Origin: a virus
DNA length: 23,054 nt
Direction: 5' to 3' (one strand)
IMG/VR virus record: IMGVR_UViG_3300045921_000602
Span: 1 to 23,054 of that record
In this document: one piece after another, positions 7,315 through 15,151 of the stretch
Numbering within the stretch: the first letter of the stretch is position 1
Layout of the letters: each line of letters begins with the position of its first letter
Notes under the pieces: generated by a model
The model's input: only the letters and a program-made list of their open reading frames with translations
Database searches by the model: none
What the model was told of the DNA's origin: nothing
Made by a program: the position numbers and the translations under genes

Positions 7315-7980
7315 ATGACGGACACAATTTACCGGCGCGCGGACGGAGAATGCTTTTTCATCCGTTTGGGGCAGTACGAGGATGTGGATCGCTTCGTCGT
7401 AGACGAAGTGCCCGAATCCTATCTGTGGGAGCGTCTGAAACGTGTTGAGACGGCTATCGATGTCGGCGCGCACATCGGGGTCTGGACGCGCAATCTCAAG
7501 CGTCTATTTCCGCGCGCGGAGGTTCTGTGCGTTGAACCACATCCGGGCAATTTTCGGCTGTTAAGACGAAACGTGTATGGACTTCGCGCTGTGATGCCTA
7601 TTTGCACCGCCGTACAGTACAGCGCGCCCTTTTACCGTCTGCATACGCACCAGGTTAACAGCGGTGGGCACACCACCGAACCTTTGCGCGCCGACGAACA
7701 GGGCAATGGTGAAGCGGAAACGCTTGAAAGTCTGATCGATTGGTGGGGATGGGGACGATGCGACCTGCTAAAACTTGACTGCGAAGGGGCAGAGGTAGAT
7801 ATTATTCAGAACGCCGATCTGACGCTGTTCAAACAGATTGTCGGTGAATATCACGCCGGCGTGATGGCATTCGACGTTCAGTGCCGCCCCGCGTTGGAAA
7901 CGGCGCATTTCCGCGTGGAGGTATTTCCCCACCCGAACTGGCCGGATAACGGCATCTTTTTTGCGGAGCGTGAAGCATGA
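7315..7980 (+). CDS. FkbM-family SAM-dependent methyltransferase
   Basis: A 221-aa class I methyltransferase, likely to O-methylate a sugar. Motif I is AIDVGAHIGVWTRN (47-60), which binds S-adenosylmethionine. Glu74 in CVEPHPGNF would hold the ribose. LLKLDCEGAEVDII (151-164) is the FkbM signature. The start at 7315 has GAGG upstream and is the only good ATG; an open frame extends upstream through the previous gene without an RBS. It overlaps the protease-capsid gene by 4 bases (ATGA), so it is translated with structural genes. FkbM enzymes are common in glycan biosynthesis clusters, and this phage carries such a set downstream of its capsid. It probably caps a glycan attached by those enzymes, perhaps on the virion. 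Confidence 0.88.
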   Translation: MTDTIYRRADGECFFIRLGQYEDVDRFVVDEVPESYLWERLKRVETAIDVGAHIGVWTRNLKRLFPRAEVLCVEPHPGNFRLLRRNVYGLRAVMPICTAVQYSAPFYRLHTHQVNSGGHTTEPLRADEQGNGEAETLESLIDWWGWGRCDLLKLDCEGAEVDIIQNADLTLFKQIVGEYHAGVMAFDVQCRPALETAHFRVEVFPHPNWPDNGIFFAEREA

Positions 7981-10292
7981 GTGAAACACTAACACCACGA
8001 CAGACGAGCAAACACACCAATTTTGTTGCCGACCGCCATATAATGAAAGAAGAATTCGAGGGCGATAAGTTGGTGGGTTTTGGCGGTAGCGTCAAGGCGC
8101 TCGGCGGCGGGCGCGTGGGTGGTTATCTGGTAATGTATGGCTCACCAGACACCCGCGATCTGCATGGCGAGTACTTTGACCGCGAACGCACCAATTTTAT
8201 GATGGACGACTACCCCATCAAGGGCGAGCGCGTGCTATATAATCACGGTCTCGATCGCACGCTGAATGTCAAGCGAATTGGTCAGTTTGATGCGGTGGGG
8301 ACGGATGAGGTAGGAATCTGGGTCGAAGCCCAGTTGAACATGGCGGATGCCTACCAGCGCGCGATTTACCAAATGGCCGAGTCTGGCAAGCTTGGATGGA
8401 GCTCTGGATCGCTGCCTCAGGCAGTGCGTACCGCCGAAGATGGTTGTATTGAACAATGGGCAGTTATCGAGGGCAGCCTTACCCCTTCCCCCGCTGATCC
8501 GCGCAATCGCGCTCGCGTCGTGCCGATCAAGGCGTTGGTTGATGTACCTGTGAATACACCTGAAGAACAGGCGGAGGCGGACGACCAGTCCGCGCCTGTT
8601 AAAGAGGAAGAAGCCGGACTATTGCCAATGCGGGCAGACGCGGAAAGCGCGCAAGCGATTTTGAATAGTGAAACAGATGTGTCAGGAGACACCACGATGG
8701 ACAATGAAAAACTGGCGCACATTATCGGTGTGGCGCTGAAAACGGTCGTTGCCGAGCTTGGCATCAAGATGTCCGATGAGGACATGCAGAAGGCGAAGGA
8801 CATGGCTGAGGACGAGGTCATGAGCATGTACGGCGAGCAGGAAGATGAAGCCGAGGTGCGTAAGTCGATTGCGTCCGAAGAATTTGTCACCCGTCTCGCG
8901 GATATTGCCAATCAGGTAAGCAAGGTGCAGGACGATCAGTTGGCGTCAAGCATCAAGAACATCATGGGCAAACGTCAGCCCGCCCCCGGCCTGCCGGCTG
9001 TGAGCAGCAACGGCGGTCGGCAGCAGCAGGCACAATACGCTCCCCGCCTCGAAGTGTCGAGCAAATATGCGAACATGGATGTCAAGGACATGGCGTTCGC
9101 TGCGTTCGTCAAGAAGACGCAGGAACGTTTTGGCAGGGCGCAGTACGACATGGTTGGCGAGCAGCAGTTCTATCGCGAGCTGGCGGACAAGGCTAGCAAG
9201 GCGATCAGTGCCAACCAGCTTGATCGGTTCGCTGTCGAAAGCAATGTAATCAAAATGGTCAACGCGATCAAGGCGGATGAACTGAACTACACCACGCAGG
9301 CGGGCTACGGAGAGGAATGGGTTGCCGATCTGTGGTCAAACGATTTGTGGCGGCAGGATCGCGTGGATAATCCGGTTTGGTCTGCAATGCGCGTTACCGA
9401 CATGCCGAGCAATCCGTACACGCTGCCAATCGAGGGCGCTGATCCGACTGTCTACCGCGTGCCAGAGACGACTGACGAAGCCGATCTCAATCCCGGCGCG
9501 ACCCCATTTACTTCGAGCAAGGTCGCAACGGGCAAGCGCACGCTGGAAGCATATAAGATGGGTGTGCGCGTCCCGTTCAGCGCAGAGATGACGGAAGACA
9601 GCATCATCGCCTTTGCGCCCGAACTGCGGCGCCAGGCGATGGAAGCGATGGTGGACGCTATCGAATACGTGCTGCTTCAGGCCGACAGCACCATCGCAAG
9701 CTCGCCGTCCGGCAACATCAACAGGTACGACGGCGCGACGCAGGCGACCGACCCGGATCGCTGGCTGCTCGGCTTCGACGGCGTGGCGCATCTGCCGCTG
9801 GTGGAAAATACTGCGCTTTCACTCGATGCCGGTGGCGCTGCCCCTACCCTGTCGCTGCTGCGAGAGGTGCGGCGCAAGCTGCCCGTCAACCGTGTCGGAA
9901 AGCTGTCAGATCTGGTATACGTCACCGACCCAATCACCGCCACCAAGCTGCTCGACATTGACGAAGTGCTGACGGTGGACAAGATCGGGGATCGTGCGAC
10001 GGTGCTGCGCGGGCAGATCGCTTCAATTGACAGCATTCCTATCCTTCAGACGGATCAGTTTGGGCTGGCGGACGAAAACGGCAAGCTGAGCGAAACCGGC
10101 ACGAACAACACGCGCGGGCGCATTTTGCTCATTCACATTCCGTCCTGGCGGGTGGGCTATCGCCGTCAGATCAAGACCTCGGTCGATTACCTGGCGTGGT
10201 CCGACAGCTATGTTCTGACTTCCTCGGTTCGTGTGGCGCTTTTCAACCGCGATACGCAGGCATCCACGATCCTGTATAATCTGTCGGTCTAA
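7977..10292 (+). CDS. Prohead protease - scaffold - major capsid polyprotein
   Basis: A 771-aa fusion of three parts normally encoded apart. Residues 30-190 are an HK97-type (U35) prohead protease: the G-G-Y-L-V-x-Y-G entry strand, DLHGEYFD, His90 in YNHGL, and the nucleophile in LGWSSGS (Ser143 or Ser145) with EGSLTPSPADP after it. Residues 240-340 are acidic and helical, like a scaffold or delta domain. Residues 345-771 are an HK97-fold major capsid protein with N-arm, E-loop region and C-terminal A-domain strands (ILLIHIPSWRVGY). The protease would remove itself and the scaffold during maturation. A strong internal RBS and ATG at residue 241 could also make a protease-free 531-aa capsid precursor. 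The gene starts in an ATGA overlap with the FkbM gene. Confidence 0.9.
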   Translation: MSETLTPRQTSKHTNFVADRHIMKEEFEGDKLVGFGGSVKALGGGRVGGYLVMYGSPDTRDLHGEYFDRERTNFMMDDYPIKGERVLYNHGLDRTLNVKRIGQFDAVGTDEVGIWVEAQLNMADAYQRAIYQMAESGKLGWSSGSLPQAVRTAEDGCIEQWAVIEGSLTPSPADPRNRARVVPIKALVDVPVNTPEEQAEADDQSAPVKEEEAGLLPMRADAESAQAILNSETDVSGDTTMDNEKLAHIIGVALKTVVAELGIKMSDEDMQKAKDMAEDEVMSMYGEQEDEAEVRKSIASEEFVTRLADIANQVSKVQDDQLASSIKNIMGKRQPAPGLPAVSSNGGRQQQAQYAPRLEVSSKYANMDVKDMAFAAFVKKTQERFGRAQYDMVGEQQFYRELADKASKAISANQLDRFAVESNVIKMVNAIKADELNYTTQAGYGEEWVADLWSNDLWRQDRVDNPVWSAMRVTDMPSNPYTLPIEGADPTVYRVPETTDEADLNPGATPFTSSKVATGKRTLEAYKMGVRVPFSAEMTEDSIIAFAPELRRQAMEAMVDAIEYVLLQADSTIASSPSGNINRYDGATQATDPDRWLLGFDGVAHLPLVENTALSLDAGGAAPTLSLLREVRRKLPVNRVGKLSDLVYVTDPITATKLLDIDEVLTVDKIGDRATVLRGQIASIDSIPILQTDQFGLADENGKLSETGTNNTRGRILLIHIPSWRVGYRRQIKTSVDYLAWSDSYVLTSSVRVALFNRDTQASTILYNLSV
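8684..8699 (+). promoter_or_regulatory. Internal RBS and start for a scaffold-capsid product
   Basis: AGGAG (8684-8688) stands 8 nt before an in-frame ATG (8697), codon 241 of the polyprotein. The product would be 531 aa, starting MDNEKLAHII at the likely scaffold boundary. It would let the phage make many capsid subunits per protease, as separate genes do in related phages. Confidence 0.6.
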
Positions 10293-10322: not shown

Positions 10323-10499
10323 ATGGGCATCATGCAGACGCGGTCTGCCACTCGCAAGGCGTTCAACATCGGTACGGCAGCGCGGGCATACGGTTATGCA
10401 CAGGTGCAAACCCTGTCGCCATATCGCTATATACAGATCGAGATGACAGCCAATCAGCATAACGCGGTGACATGCGTCATCCCGGTCAAAAATAACTGA
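10323..10499 (+). CDS. Small 58-aa protein after the capsid gene, unknown
   Basis: A 58-aa reading frame starts MGIMQTRSATRK and ends IPVKNN-TGA. A near-perfect RBS (AGGAAGGA) lies about 7 nt upstream, and it begins 30 nt after the capsid stop. It is easily missed by a 60-residue length cut-off. The sequence is rich in Ala, Thr, Tyr and Gln, with alternating beta-like stretches (AYGYAQVQTL, YRYIQIEM, AVTCVIPV) and one Cys, and no membrane segment. The slot after the capsid gene often holds a decoration or cement protein, but this is shorter than lambda gpD-type proteins. It could be a minor decoration protein or a target of the neighbouring glycosyltransferases; both are inference. Confidence 0.7.
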   Translation: MGIMQTRSATRKAFNIGTAARAYGYAQVQTLSPYRYIQIEMTANQHNAVTCVIPVKNN

Positions 10500-10592: not shown

Positions 10593-11747
10593 ATGATAAT
10601 TCTGTGGGCAAGCAACATCTCATCTGCCAGCGCGTATGCACAGCAGGCGCTGATGATGTTCCCATATATCAAGGCGCTCGGTCATGATATTACGGCGTTA
10701 GAATTAGGAAATGCATCCCGCAAGCCGTACATGATAAACGACGACATTCGCGTTCTGCCTGTGGCTCACGATCCGCTTGCCAATGATTGCATTCTCGAAC
10801 GAATGGTGCAGAGCAAAGCGGATGTGGTCGTTACGCTGGTCGATGTGTGGCGATTTGATCCGTCCATATGGAGACAAGTGAACTGGTGGGCGATCTGTCC
10901 TGTTGATCACGCCCCCTTGCCGCCGGATGTTGCGAAGGCGTTGAGCGCGGCAAAGGGCGTGATTGCGTTAAGTCGGTATGGGCAAGACAAGTTAAGGGCG
11001 GCGGGGTTTGATGCTCTGTATGCCCCACATATGGTCGATCCGACCATCTTTCACCCGGTCGAGCGCGTGTACGCGCGCGCGCAGGCAAACATTCCCCACG
11101 ACAGTTTCTGGGTAACGTTCGTCGGCGTTAACGACAGCGTACAGTCCCGCAAGGGAATACCGGAGTTACTGGTCGCATGGAAGGCATTTTCTGATCGTCA
11201 TCCGGACGCCGTTTTATATTTGCACACTGCCATTGCAGGCAACCTGCCGGTCAACAGCATTGGTGGCGTCCGGATTGATCATATCCTAAACACGTTGGAG
11301 GTGCGTAACGGATCGGTACGGATATGTGATCAGAGTAAATATCTGGCGCAGTCGATCCCGCAGACGGAAATTGCGACCATTCTCGCCGCCAGTGATGTCT
11401 TTATACTCCCGTCACGTGGTGAAGGGTTTGGGGTTCCGCTGATCGAAGCCCAATCTACAGGCACGCCGGTGATCACCACTGATTTCGCGGCGGGTTCCGA
11501 ACTGGTCGGCGCGGGCTGGAAGGTTGGCTATGAAGTCGAATGGACGTTCCAAAATGCTTTTTGTGCCAAGCCCGGTATTGCTGATATAATCGACGCGCTT
11601 GAGGATGCATATCGCCAGCGGCACAATCAGCAAATCCGCCAACAGGCAGTGAAATTCGCAGAACGATTCCACATCCAAAACGCTTTCCCAAAATACTGGC
11701 AGCCCGTTTTCGATGCGATTGCCGAGCGTTCGCTGGAGGTGATCTGA
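10593..11747 (+). CDS. GT4-family glycosyltransferase
   Basis: A 384-aa GT-B fold enzyme that transfers a sugar from an activated donor. The C-terminal half carries the EX7E signature: PSRGEGFGVPLIEA, with Glu277 and Glu285. The SRKGIPELL segment (185-193) supplies the phosphate-binding Arg/Lys. The N-terminus, MIILWASNISSASAYAQQA, is the usual first strand and acceptor loop. I chose ATG 10593 because GAGAGGG lies 4-5 nt upstream; ATG 10578 is in frame and possible. It begins the run of glycan genes between the capsid and the connector and overlaps the next by one base (TGATG). There is no membrane segment, so it acts in the cytoplasm, where virions assemble. Donor and acceptor cannot be read from sequence. 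Confidence 0.88.
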   Translation: MIILWASNISSASAYAQQALMMFPYIKALGHDITALELGNASRKPYMINDDIRVLPVAHDPLANDCILERMVQSKADVVVTLVDVWRFDPSIWRQVNWWAICPVDHAPLPPDVAKALSAAKGVIALSRYGQDKLRAAGFDALYAPHMVDPTIFHPVERVYARAQANIPHDSFWVTFVGVNDSVQSRKGIPELLVAWKAFSDRHPDAVLYLHTAIAGNLPVNSIGGVRIDHILNTLEVRNGSVRICDQSKYLAQSIPQTEIATILAASDVFILPSRGEGFGVPLIEAQSTGTPVITTDFAAGSELVGAGWKVGYEVEWTFQNAFCAKPGIADIIDALEDAYRQRHNQQIRQQAVKFAERFHIQNAFPKYWQPVFDAIAERSLEVI

Positions 11748-12757
11748 TGCGCATTTGCATTTTGTCGGATGCGATGGGTGCAACGCCAACAGCGCATGGA
11801 CACGGTCTTGGTCGCGCCGTTCACCTGATTGCGGAAGGACTGCTTGCTGCTGGTCACGACATCACGTTGGTGGCTGTTGAAGGAAGCAGTTTCAGCGGTA
11901 CACTGCTGACGCCATGTTCGGAAGGCAAAGATAACGAGAAATATCTGGCAAAAGCGGCCTATGCCGCGCATCTTCAGAAACCGTTTGACGTGTTCTACGA
12001 TCACGGTCATCAGCATCTGCTGAGCCGGTTCTTTCCGTCCTTTCCGATCGTCAATCACTACCACGATAAGTGGCAGCCCCACGCTCCCAACCCCATCTGC
12101 TGCTCAAATGCGCAGCGCAGTTTGATGACAAGGGAGGTGGACGAACGATTTGCGGAGGCGCGGGTGATCCATAATGCCATTCCAGCCGATCAGATCACCG
12201 TCAGCTACCGCGCGGACAGCGACGAGCCTTATGCACTGTTCGTGGGTTTTCTGCGTGATTACAAACAGCCTATTCTGGCAATCGAGGCGGCGGCACGCGG
12301 TCGGTTTCGGTTGGTGATGGCGGGCGGGCAGGTTGGATCCAATAATTTCCTGTTCAGCGGGAATGAAATGGTGGAATATATCGGCGCGGCACCGCGCAGC
12401 CATGTCATTGAACTAATGCGCGGCGCGCAAGCCCTCCTGCAGCTTGGTCACAGTGAGGCCTGTCCGATGGTCAACATTGAGGCGGGGCTAGCGGGCTGTC
12501 CTGTTGCGGCATTCGGCAGCGAAGGTAATCTCGATTATATCGTTGAGGGCGTCAACGGATATATTATTGATCCTGCTGCGCCGGACAAGGTGGACGCAGT
12601 TATCGAAGCATACGAGAAGGCGCGTTTGTTGGATAGAAAACAGGTGCGCGCCAGCGTGGTTGACCACTGGGGCAGCGCAGAGCGGCAAATAAAGGAGTGC
12701 GAAGATGCGCTGCGGGCATGTGCCGAGGGTCAGCGCTGGGGTATTTCCCGCACCTAA
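11747..12757 (+). CDS. GT4-family glycosyltransferase, second
   Basis: A 336-aa GT-B enzyme. The N-terminal Rossmann domain has MRICILSDAMGA and the glycine-rich GHGLGRAVHLIAEGL acceptor loop. The C-terminal domain has FVGFLRDYKQPILAIEAA, the strand before the donor site, and the EX7E motif SEACPMVNIEA (Glu237, Glu245). The linker VIHNAIP (140-146) is the common inter-domain segment. It starts one base inside the upstream glycosyltransferase stop, so the two are coupled. The sequence differs enough from its neighbour that it is not a recent duplicate, and the two probably add successive sugars. It is cytoplasmic, with no signal or membrane segment. Confidence 0.87.
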   Translation: MRICILSDAMGATPTAHGHGLGRAVHLIAEGLLAAGHDITLVAVEGSSFSGTLLTPCSEGKDNEKYLAKAAYAAHLQKPFDVFYDHGHQHLLSRFFPSFPIVNHYHDKWQPHAPNPICCSNAQRSLMTREVDERFAEARVIHNAIPADQITVSYRADSDEPYALFVGFLRDYKQPILAIEAAARGRFRLVMAGGQVGSNNFLFSGNEMVEYIGAAPRSHVIELMRGAQALLQLGHSEACPMVNIEAGLAGCPVAAFGSEGNLDYIVEGVNGYIIDPAAPDKVDAVIEAYEKARLLDRKQVRASVVDHWGSAERQIKECEDALRACAEGQRWGISRT

Positions 12758-12835
12758 TCAACGACATCGACAGTGAACGGTTGCGTGTCTTCGCGCCGTA
12801 TCGATTAGTGTATTGAGGCAACACAGGAGCAGTGC

Positions 12836-13537
12836 ATGTCCCCTTCAAAGCACCAGGAACACTGGCAGGACGGTTTTAAAAACGAACTGTCTTACTGGCG
12901 ATATATTCTGGCAGATATGGGCGCGGCGGAAGGCGTTTCTGAGGATACCCGCGCCCGCCTGGATCCATTGACCCCACTTCAGGATATTTTCCGCGAGCTG
13001 GCAGATGGGCGCAAGACGGTGCGCATCCTGGACGTTGGGGCTGGCGTATTGACCAACATCGGCAAGGTCTGGGATGAGCATACGGTAGATATTACCGCTG
13101 TCGATCCGCTGGCAAACTACTACGACGATATGCTGACAGAATTCGGCATTGAGCCGCCCGTGCGAACGATTGAGGGACAGGCAGAGAATTTGCCGAAACA
13201 ATTTCCGCGCAAACGATTCGATATTGTAGCAGCAACGAATGCGCTTGACCACAGCGCCGATGCCCCTGCAAGCATTCAGGGCATGTGGAAGGTTGTTGAC
13301 AAAGGTGGCTGGCTGTTTTTGAGTCATGCCATCAATGAAGCGGAGACCCACCGTTATCAGGGAATGCACTGTTGGAATTTCTTTGTCGATGAAGACTACA
13401 ACCTGATGGTGAGAGATAACGAACAGTCCGTATCGGTGCTTGATCTGATCGACGACGTGGCGGAAAAGCGCGTCACGGTCTCCGACGCGCCGAATAAGCC
13501 CGGTTGGATCGTTGCGTGTTACCAGAAGAAGGCGTAA
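12836..13537 (+). CDS. Class I SAM-dependent methyltransferase
   Basis: A 233-aa enzyme. Motif I is RILDVGAGVLTNIG (63-76). Asp90 in AVDPLANYYDDML binds the ribose hydroxyls. FDIVAATNALDHSADA (128-143) is the post-I motif IV region seen in methyltransferase type 11 proteins. GMHCWNFF (176-183) recalls sugar methyltransferases of glycan clusters. AGGAG stands 7 nt before the ATG. A 78-bp gap precedes it, with no clear promoter. It lies between two glycosyltransferase genes and abuts the next, so the substrate is probably a sugar of the same glycan. A protein or small-molecule substrate cannot be excluded. Confidence 0.8.
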   Translation: MSPSKHQEHWQDGFKNELSYWRYILADMGAAEGVSEDTRARLDPLTPLQDIFRELADGRKTVRILDVGAGVLTNIGKVWDEHTVDITAVDPLANYYDDMLTEFGIEPPVRTIEGQAENLPKQFPRKRFDIVAATNALDHSADAPASIQGMWKVVDKGGWLFLSHAINEAETHRYQGMHCWNFFVDEDYNLMVRDNEQSVSVLDLIDDVAEKRVTVSDAPNKPGWIVACYQKKA

Positions 13538-14269
13538 ATGTCGTCTGTCAGTGTGCTTATTCCCGCTTACAACGCCAGCAGCACGCTTTTGCGCGCCCTG
13601 GACAGCGTACACCGACAGAAGGACGTGGATGTCGAGGTATGCCTATGTCTCAACGGGTCTGAAGACGAAATTGCGGCGATGCGGCATATCTTTGCCACTG
13701 AAAGCACGTTGGTCGGCTTATGCACAGAACTTCCCGGAGCGGTTGGTGCAGCACGTGCGTTGAATGAGGCGGCGGCATTGGCGAAGGGCAGCTACTTTAT
13801 TGAGTTAGACGCCGATGATGTTCTCTGGGACGATACGTGTCTGAGTCATATGGTCAAGGCGCTGGAAGACAGCCCATCACACGTCGGATTTGTTTACGGC
13901 AATGTGGAATACAACGGCGACGCGGAATTCGTACACACTGCGCCGACATTCTATCGTGAGATCTTCTGGTATGGGAACGCCGCGCTATACCCGTTTCTGT
14001 ATCGCCGCGAGGCTTGGGACAGCGGATGCCGCTATTATAGTCTGTATTATGATGAACAGGCAAAGCGGCAGTATGATTTTCAGGATTGGGATATGTTGTT
14101 GCAGTTGACCGAACTGATGCGCTATGACGGCGTGGCGCTGCCGCATGTAAACGTTTTGCGCTATACGTATAGACAGGATGGGTCGCATGAAACCGCGCGA
14201 CCGCATCATGCAGAAATGCTGAAGCGCATGAAAACACGTTGGCCAATGCTGGCCGTCAACAGAGCATAG
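13538..14269 (+). CDS. GT2-family glycosyltransferase
   Basis: A 243-aa inverting GT-A enzyme. It opens with the family motif VSVLIPAYNASSTL, has the metal-binding DADD (91-94) and the likely catalytic QDWD (182-185) in a Y-D-F-Q-D-W-D context. GAVGAARALNEA matches the G-x-x-x-A-R-N-x-G region that holds the nucleotide. There is no C-terminal membrane anchor, so it is a soluble enzyme. It starts directly after the methyltransferase stop (TAAATG), with GAAGG inside that gene as RBS. It is the last of the glycan genes before tail joining genes resume, and the connector RBS (AGGTGA) overlaps its stop. Confidence 0.87.
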   Translation: MSSVSVLIPAYNASSTLLRALDSVHRQKDVDVEVCLCLNGSEDEIAAMRHIFATESTLVGLCTELPGAVGAARALNEAAALAKGSYFIELDADDVLWDDTCLSHMVKALEDSPSHVGFVYGNVEYNGDAEFVHTAPTFYREIFWYGNAALYPFLYRREAWDSGCRYYSLYYDEQAKRQYDFQDWDMLLQLTELMRYDGVALPHVNVLRYTYRQDGSHETARPHHAEMLKRMKTRWPMLAVNRA

Positions 14270-14278
14270 GTGAATACG

Positions 14279-15151
14279 ATGGCGATCTACTACCCTGACC
14301 TGACAACTCTGGATGCAGTAAAACGTCTTGCCGACATCCAGGATACTGACGCGGATGATGAGCGATTGACCGAATTTATTCATCAGGCCAGTGGTATTGT
14401 GCAGACCATGACGGGCAGGACGTTTGTGCCGTATTATTACGCGCACCGTTTCGACGCGCGGGGATACAATGTCACATCCACCCTGCTCGATCTCGATGAA
14501 GACCTGCTGGAAGTGGAGATGCTGGTCAACGGGGATGGGACAGTAATTGCGGACACAGGCTACATTTTGCGACCCAATAACGAACATCCCAAGTGGCGTA
14601 TCGAGCTTTTGCCGTCGTCGTCGGCGCGGTTTACATACAACACGGACTGGCAGCAGGCAATTTCGGTAGTGGGATGGTGGGGGTTTGTTCAGCACTATCC
14701 CCGCGCCTTTTCCCCTGTCACATCAATCACGACCGGTCTCAGCACAACCGCGGAAACCATCGAAGTGGACAGCGTGGATGGTCTGGAGATACTGGACTAC
14801 ATCAGAATAAACGATGGCAATGAGATCATGCAGATTACGCAGATTGATGCGTCTTCCAAAATCCTGACGTTGGCGCGCGGGCAGCTTGGCACGATCGCTG
14901 AGAGCTATCAGGATGACGACATGGTGCATGTCTATCGGCAGAATGCAGAAATTGGTTTGGCGGCAGCGCGTATCGCGCGCTTCCTGTATGATCATCGCGA
15001 TACGATGGACAGATATATTCAGGTGAGCGATACTACTGCGCTGATGGACAGCCGTTTTCCTAAGGAGGTGATGGCGGTCATTCAAAACTACCGTCGTCTT
15101 CAGATTCAGGTATCACCGACCGCGCCATATCGCGGAACAGGGAATTTCTAA
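14279..15151 (+). CDS. Head-tail connector (gp6-like adaptor) with an inserted beta domain
   Basis: A 290-aa protein. The gp6-type adaptor signature is in its N-terminal third: YPDLTTLDAVKRLADI, then DERLTEFIHQASGIVQTMTGR (28-48). Adaptors form a ring under the portal. These are usually 100-200 aa; here extra beta-rich segments are inserted. Residues 147-220 (VTSITTGLSTT to MVHVYR) resemble a short beta domain found in several phage structural proteins, with T-x-I-x-V-x-S, YIRIND and RGQLGT elements. The C-terminal helices (AAARIARFLYDHRDTM) return to the adaptor fold. I chose ATG 14279 because AGGTGA stands 6 nt upstream; a GTG at 14270 has none. Its stop overlaps the next ATG (TAATG). Confidence 0.75.
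   Translation: MAIYYPDLTTLDAVKRLADIQDTDADDERLTEFIHQASGIVQTMTGRTFVPYYYAHRFDARGYNVTSTLLDLDEDLLEVEMLVNGDGTVIADTGYILRPNNEHPKWRIELLPSSSARFTYNTDWQQAISVVGWWGFVQHYPRAFSPVTSITTGLSTTAETIEVDSVDGLEILDYIRINDGNEIMQITQIDASSKILTLARGQLGTIAESYQDDDMVHVYRQNAEIGLAAARIARFLYDHRDTMDRYIQVSDTTALMDSRFPKEVMAVIQNYRRLQIQVSPTAPYRGTGNF

Follow-up and report, generated by a model that had tools for sequence, protein, structure and literature searches.

Gene content of the window

We analyzed a linear 23,054-base virus record from IMG/VR (IMGVR_UViG_3300045921_000602, positions 1 to 23,054; hereafter the window), in which two GT4 glycosyltransferases (GT4a and GT4b), a class I methyltransferase and a GT2 glycosyltransferase are encoded in one co-oriented run between the gene for the major capsid protein (MCP) and that for a probable head-tail connector. 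Read on the plus strand, the record carries a helix-turn-helix regulator, a ClpP-type protease, TerL, the portal, two small genes and an FkbM-family methyltransferase, and the layout continues with a protease-MCP fusion, GT4a, GT4b, the class I methyltransferase, GT2 and the probable connector, after which come tail genes, among them a candidate for the tape measure and one that is open. The cassette and its borders comprise the following features (ORF, open reading frame; SAM, S-adenosylmethionine; SD, Shine-Dalgarno sequence):

7315..7980, plus strand: FkbM-family SAM methyltransferase (TIGR01444, 70.9 bits against a cut-off of 37.7; PF05050, 1.6e-11)
7977..10292, plus strand: MCP, a candidate acceptor of the glycan, with a protease-like/scaffold region at its N terminus
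10323..10499, plus strand: 58-aa ORF between MCP and GT4a (SD AGGAAGG upstream of ATG)
10593..11747, plus strand: GT4a, core GT4 (GT-B, retaining type) glycosyltransferase of an MCP-linked phage family (PF00534, 4e-14; phrog_2170, 1e-33)
11747..12757, plus strand: GT4b, second GT4 glycosyltransferase (PF00534, 3.8e-19; EX7E = EACPMVNIE)
12836..13537, plus strand: class I SAM methyltransferase (DVGAG; PF08241, 5.1e-9)
13538..14269, plus strand: GT2 (GT-A) glycosyltransferase (PF00535, 1.1e-19; DADD, QDWD)
14270..15151, plus strand: probable head-tail connector closing the cassette (borderline: PF05135, 21.3 against 21.2; phrog_442, 8.6e-6)

An earlier reading of the letters alone (the sequence-only reading) had described the four enzymes between MCP and connector, with intact signatures, no membrane anchor and a separate FkbM enzyme, and each of these points was borne out. 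Its coordinates were right and agree with the Pfam matches, the connector being borderline; both EX7E motifs, DVGAG, DADD and QDWD are present; and no membrane segment was detected in any of the five glycan enzymes (19-residue hydropathy maximum at most 1.31, and 1.11 for GT2). The GT4 assignment rests on EX7E, a GT-B fold and PF00534, that of GT2 on a DXD-type motif and PF00535, and that of FkbM on TIGR01444. Neither a GtrA flippase nor a membrane-anchored GtrB or Gtr(type) gene, the parts expected of a Gtr serotype-conversion module, was found within the MCP-connector interval of the window. GT4a is preceded by an SD (GAGAGG) and has EGFGVPLIE as its EX7E motif, of which both glutamates (E277 and E285), together with R186 and K187, are invariant across 44 homologues. 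The cassette genes abut or nearly abut on one strand (TGATG, TAA-ATG, TAG-GTG), the end of the FkbM gene and the start of MCP share 4 nt (ATGA), and terminator-like matches in the region number 7 against a shuffled mean of 7.7, so that neither the junctions nor the terminators speak against a single late transcript.

GT4a recurs beside the capsid gene

Searches of IMG/VR with the window MCP alone or GT4a alone returned no relatives, and a nucleotide search of the cassette among phages gave no match. A three-sequence GT4a alignment used as query yielded at least 489 relatives in IMG/VR, the best 80 of which were mapped with iterated profiles, non-redundant members being those below 80% identity (median pairwise identity ~40%). 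Annotated phage homologues are few; in Microcystis phage Mae-JY09 and Pontimonas phage phiPsal1 the GT4a orthologue comes just after the MCP gene and ahead of the neck genes, in the orders MCP-x-GT4-GT2-epimerase and MCP-GT4-methyltransferase-GT2-neck, respectively. The phiPsal1 methyltransferase (L013:8162-8680; L numbers denote sampled loci) lies on the minus strand between the plus-strand GT4 and GT2 genes, and is real by its homology to S-CBS4 gp16.

The sequence-only reading had proposed searching related contigs for this gene order, and the order does recur. An MCP gene ends within 1 kb upstream of GT4a in 35 of the 48 non-redundant loci whose upstream sequence was long enough, same-strand virion genes are present in 59/63, and connector or tail genes follow within 5 kb in 30/35. 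Taking the loci as independent, which they are not fully, the MCP linkage has P ~3e-35 at p=0.05, a value that is indicative only because GT4a loci are related to one another. Since these loci were chosen on glycosyltransferase similarity alone, gene position lay outside the selection, and recurrence excludes a chance placement of GT4a beside MCP. The reciprocal search picked loci by MCP similarity alone, and so removes the selection bias of the first set. Among phiPsal-type loci GT4a was the next recognised gene in 68/69, and wherever long downstream sequence was available both GT4a and GT2 preceded the connector (34/34); as the members of this set are at least 65% identical in MCP, it samples one lineage. 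GT4a was likewise found downstream of MCP in 16/16 informative Mae-type loci (L205 had too little sequence) and in 3/3 loci found near L034.

Distances between GT4a proteins correlate with those between MCPs (Mantel r 0.79, p 0.0005, n=31), portal and TerL distances followed too, and GT4a is the more conserved of the two (mean distance 0.57 against 0.74 for MCP); GT4a thus has the behaviour of a core gene in these phages. Members cluster in the GT4a tree according to their MCP type, yet the tree requires 14 type changes (with four labels, including unassigned), and the position of the window in it is unsure because of a long branch. In a profile search of ~595 bacterial genomes, which covered two phyla only, we recovered three GT4a members, each beside phage genes and none in a host glycan locus, two of the three being anchor genomes that were picked because they carry one. 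Host GT4s in two anchor genomes scored at most 81 bits, against 345-524 for GT4a members. One locus, L105, lies on a 318-kb contig of a Pirellulales metagenome-assembled genome as a TerL-portal-protease-MCP-GT4a-GT2-connector run, and is likely a prophage or a misbinned phage. A pattern scan of genome contigs (3 loci) was not used as evidence for phage restriction, its patterns matching only 4/80 viral members.

For GT4a a GT-B fold was predicted (AlphaFold2, pLDDT 94.7). Its best match by sequence in the PDB is B736L of chlorovirus NY2A (3OY2; 1.4e-16, 14-15% identity), which also ranked first in Foldseek; by VIA-align, however, B736L was tied with sucrose-phosphate synthase, so that nothing firm follows on the acceptor. 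The structure comparison that the sequence-only reading had suggested, made here for GT4a, supported a GT-B fold and gave no firm indication of the acceptor.

Cassette contents and fusions

In the interval from GT4a to the structural gene that follows, the relatives carry 89 ORFs, in which a Pfam census counted 28 GT2, 9 epimerase/dehydratase, 5 GT4 and 4 radical SAM matches along with several methyltransferase families; a single one of the 89 is membrane-like, and neither a flippase nor a polymerase is among the Pfam families listed for them. The four radical SAM ORFs and two B12-binding domain matches among the 89 hint at unusual sugar or peptide modification. Relatives of GT4b (30-32% identical) stand directly before the connector in L027, L037, L054 and L104, with a further one in L201, and relatives of the window GT2 occur in the cassettes of L037, L054, L058 and L201. 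In PHROGs these glycosyltransferases are currently classed with the morons and auxiliary metabolic genes. The sequence-only reading had regarded the window as carrying an unusually rich set of enzymes, a view that did not survive the comparison: comparable sets occur in relatives and the core is widespread, making the cassette less exceptional but more widespread than had been thought.

GT4a is fused to FkbM in eight loci (L037, L041, L046, L075, L092 and L099, plus L049 and L057, in which a GT2 domain lies between), which ties the separate FkbM gene of the window to the same pathway, and the GT4a-FkbM and GT4a-GT2-FkbM fusions lend support to a glycan that would be methylated. The ~920-aa single ORFs with all three domains (L049:5693-8443 and L057:7872-10640) are candidate one-polypeptide glycan assemblers.

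In Mae-type phages a conserved Ser/Thr-rich, Lys/Arg-poor protein of 130-138 aa is encoded between MCP and GT4a in 19/19 inspected loci (for example L012:9293-9691 and L026:7495-7896). It is predicted to be all-beta and jelly-roll-like (pLDDT 82), with a weak structural match to a Pam1 capsid chain (TM 0.53), and is probably an undescribed head decoration protein. No such jelly-roll protein was found in the window, where the slot is occupied by the 58-aa ORF, which the sequence-only reading had overlooked and which has no match among PHROGs.

Other features of the window

The window MCP passes TIGR01554 narrowly (28.5 against 27.5), matches phrog_10 (5.6e-10) and phrog_80 (0.004), and is itself matched by the phiPsal1 MCP profile at 2.7e-17. 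Its N-terminus is protease-like, with Salinibacter phages matching residues 39-187; this ORF (7977-10292) and the ClpP-type gene upstream of TerL (2260-2859) are two candidates for a head-maturation protease. Upstream of the first genes, at 215-788, short tandem repeats (periods 8, 10, 21 and 36) form a cluster.

Comparison with known systems

A small number of mycobacteriophages are known to have glycosylated virions, and in these the modification affects antibody recognition. Similar to the window, the cluster O phages Corndog and Catdawg have phage glycosyltransferases and an O-methyltransferase (OMT) within the late structural operon, in the order OMT-GT-GT-GT; mass spectrometry recovered few of their capsid peptides, which the authors ascribed to possible glycan and methyl modification (PMC4351075). 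The cluster O set differs in lying between portal and protease rather than after MCP, and has neither a GT4a-family nor an FkbM enzyme, its methyltransferase being of the TylF type. That the virions of Che8, Corndog and Myrna are glycosylated was shown in later work (Freeman 2023, as cited in PMC12363180, PMC12691614 and PMC11256854). In the cluster F phage Che8, for which capsid glycosylation was reported, gp108-110 comprise a GT2 fused to a methyltransferase plus further glycosyltransferases; unlike in the window, these genes lie at the right genome end, distant from the structural genes, and include no GT4a. The profile of the cassette GT2_Psal family matches Catdawg gp35 (~2e-10) and Che8 gp109, in the range 1e-9 to 1e-10, which is a weak relationship, and the window GT2 profile matches Che8 gp108 at 4e-5.

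phiPsal1 and Mae-JY09 resemble the window in having a GT4a orthologue after MCP, GT2 and methyltransferase or epimerase partners and the neck genes next, although they have a single GT4, a different methyltransferase type or an epimerase, and different MCP types. The capsid-glycan enzymes of chloroviruses belong instead to viruses of eukaryotic algae; among them PBCV-1 A064R joins glycosyltransferase and methyltransferase domains (PMC4691112), while the acceptor of B736L is unproven (PMC9614988). We found no published description of an MCP-linked GT4 cassette in the literature searched, outside which most subscription journals fall. Judged by gene content, the cassette differs from the known mycobacteriophage systems in its core enzyme, its position, its methyltransferase and a much wider distribution.

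Discussion

Taken together, we consider it probable that these genes make up a cassette for virion glycosylation, expressed late along with the structural genes, and that its acceptor would be the MCP or a neighbouring head-surface protein. That the modification concerns the virion rather than the host surface is well supported by the genomics, because MCP linkage is near-obligate in both search directions, GT4a is co-inherited with MCP, the enzymes are soluble, the Pfam families listed include no flippase or polymerase, and mycobacteriophages offer a precedent. The sequence-only reading had envisaged a methylated oligosaccharide on the phage's own capsid or tail, which is supported in part: MCP linkage and co-inheritance favour a virion target and the fusions a methylated glycan, whose acceptor may be the MCP, a decoration protein or the tail. 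Several observations weigh against our interpretation. The distant MCP relatives L210 and L211 have a connector and no GT4a before it, so that not every one of these MCPs is accompanied by the cassette; the profile of the window's class I methyltransferase returns only itself, with no orthologue in the sampled cassettes; profile comparison detected no relationship of GT4a to the proven mycobacteriophage enzymes; we found no published mass spectrometry on virions of any GT4a-family carrier; and in some relatives GT4a follows connector or tail-completion genes, ahead of the tail tube.

This last arrangement would fit a connector or tail acceptor, and a virion protein other than the capsid shell (head decoration, connector or tail tube) is a possible, though less likely, target. 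The Ser/Thr-rich jelly-roll-like protein of the Mae-type loci points in the same direction, as do mycobacteriophages, for which glycosylation of both capsid and tail tube proteins is reported (PMC12363180), but many phiPsal-type phages have GT4a immediately after MCP, with gaps often below 70 bp that leave no space for an extra gene, and the window has no jelly-roll gene. We regard it as unlikely that the enzymes modify host surface glycans (lipopolysaccharide, capsule or teichoic acid) late in infection or lysogeny in a Gtr-like manner, blocking superinfection or re-adsorption to debris. The window GT2 does match GtrB-like PHROGs weakly (phrog_841, 8.5e-5), the GT4 fold is common to WaaG, PglA and TarM, and Pontimonas has many cell-wall glycosyltransferases (PMC6106888); against this, the window cassette and the Pfam families shown for the 89 ORFs contain no membrane glycosyltransferase, GtrA flippase or polymerase, a moron would not be expected to show near-obligate linkage to two or more capsid types or to be inherited together with MCP, and the ~595 genomes held no GT4a member in a host glycan locus. 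A T4-like glycosylation of modified bases in phage DNA seems very improbable: phage GT-B enzymes can act on DNA, and base-modification genes could lie outside the window, which is a fragment, but its family matches include no AGT/BGT or other DNA-glucosyltransferase, and methyltransferase, epimerase and second-glycosyltransferase partners in a late operon are ill-suited to such a role.

For a virion-glycosylation cassette, we infer the acceptor, the sugar, the sequence of steps and the purpose as follows. The cassette would function as the proven mycobacteriophage systems do, though its core enzyme and its position differ from theirs, and its glycan would most likely be built straight onto a virion protein within the cytoplasm, because the interval has no lipid-carrier or export gene. 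GT4a would act first, starting or building the core of a short glycan from a host nucleotide sugar, GT4b and GT2 would then extend the chain, and FkbM and the class I methyltransferase would cap hydroxyls by O-methylation; donor sugars are presumably host-made, as the window has no nucleoside-diphosphate-sugar gene. Its acceptor would most likely be either the MCP or a protein of the head surface from an adjacent gene, and the glycan might serve in shielding or adhesion of the head.

Considering that many environmental phages carry related sets at this location, it may be common for phage heads to bear a coat of sugar. We give even chances to the broader proposal that several lineages of environmental tailed phages have long inherited, as part of their core, a capsid-glycan cassette centred on GT4a, which would be near-obligate next to two or more MCP types and would have been exchanged onto others, so that heads bearing methylated glycans would be normal for many phages. 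If this is true, capsid glycans would be common and would need a role outside animals, such as adhesion, stability or protection from proteases or grazers, and GT4a after MCP would be a simple genetic marker for picking phages for mass spectrometry.

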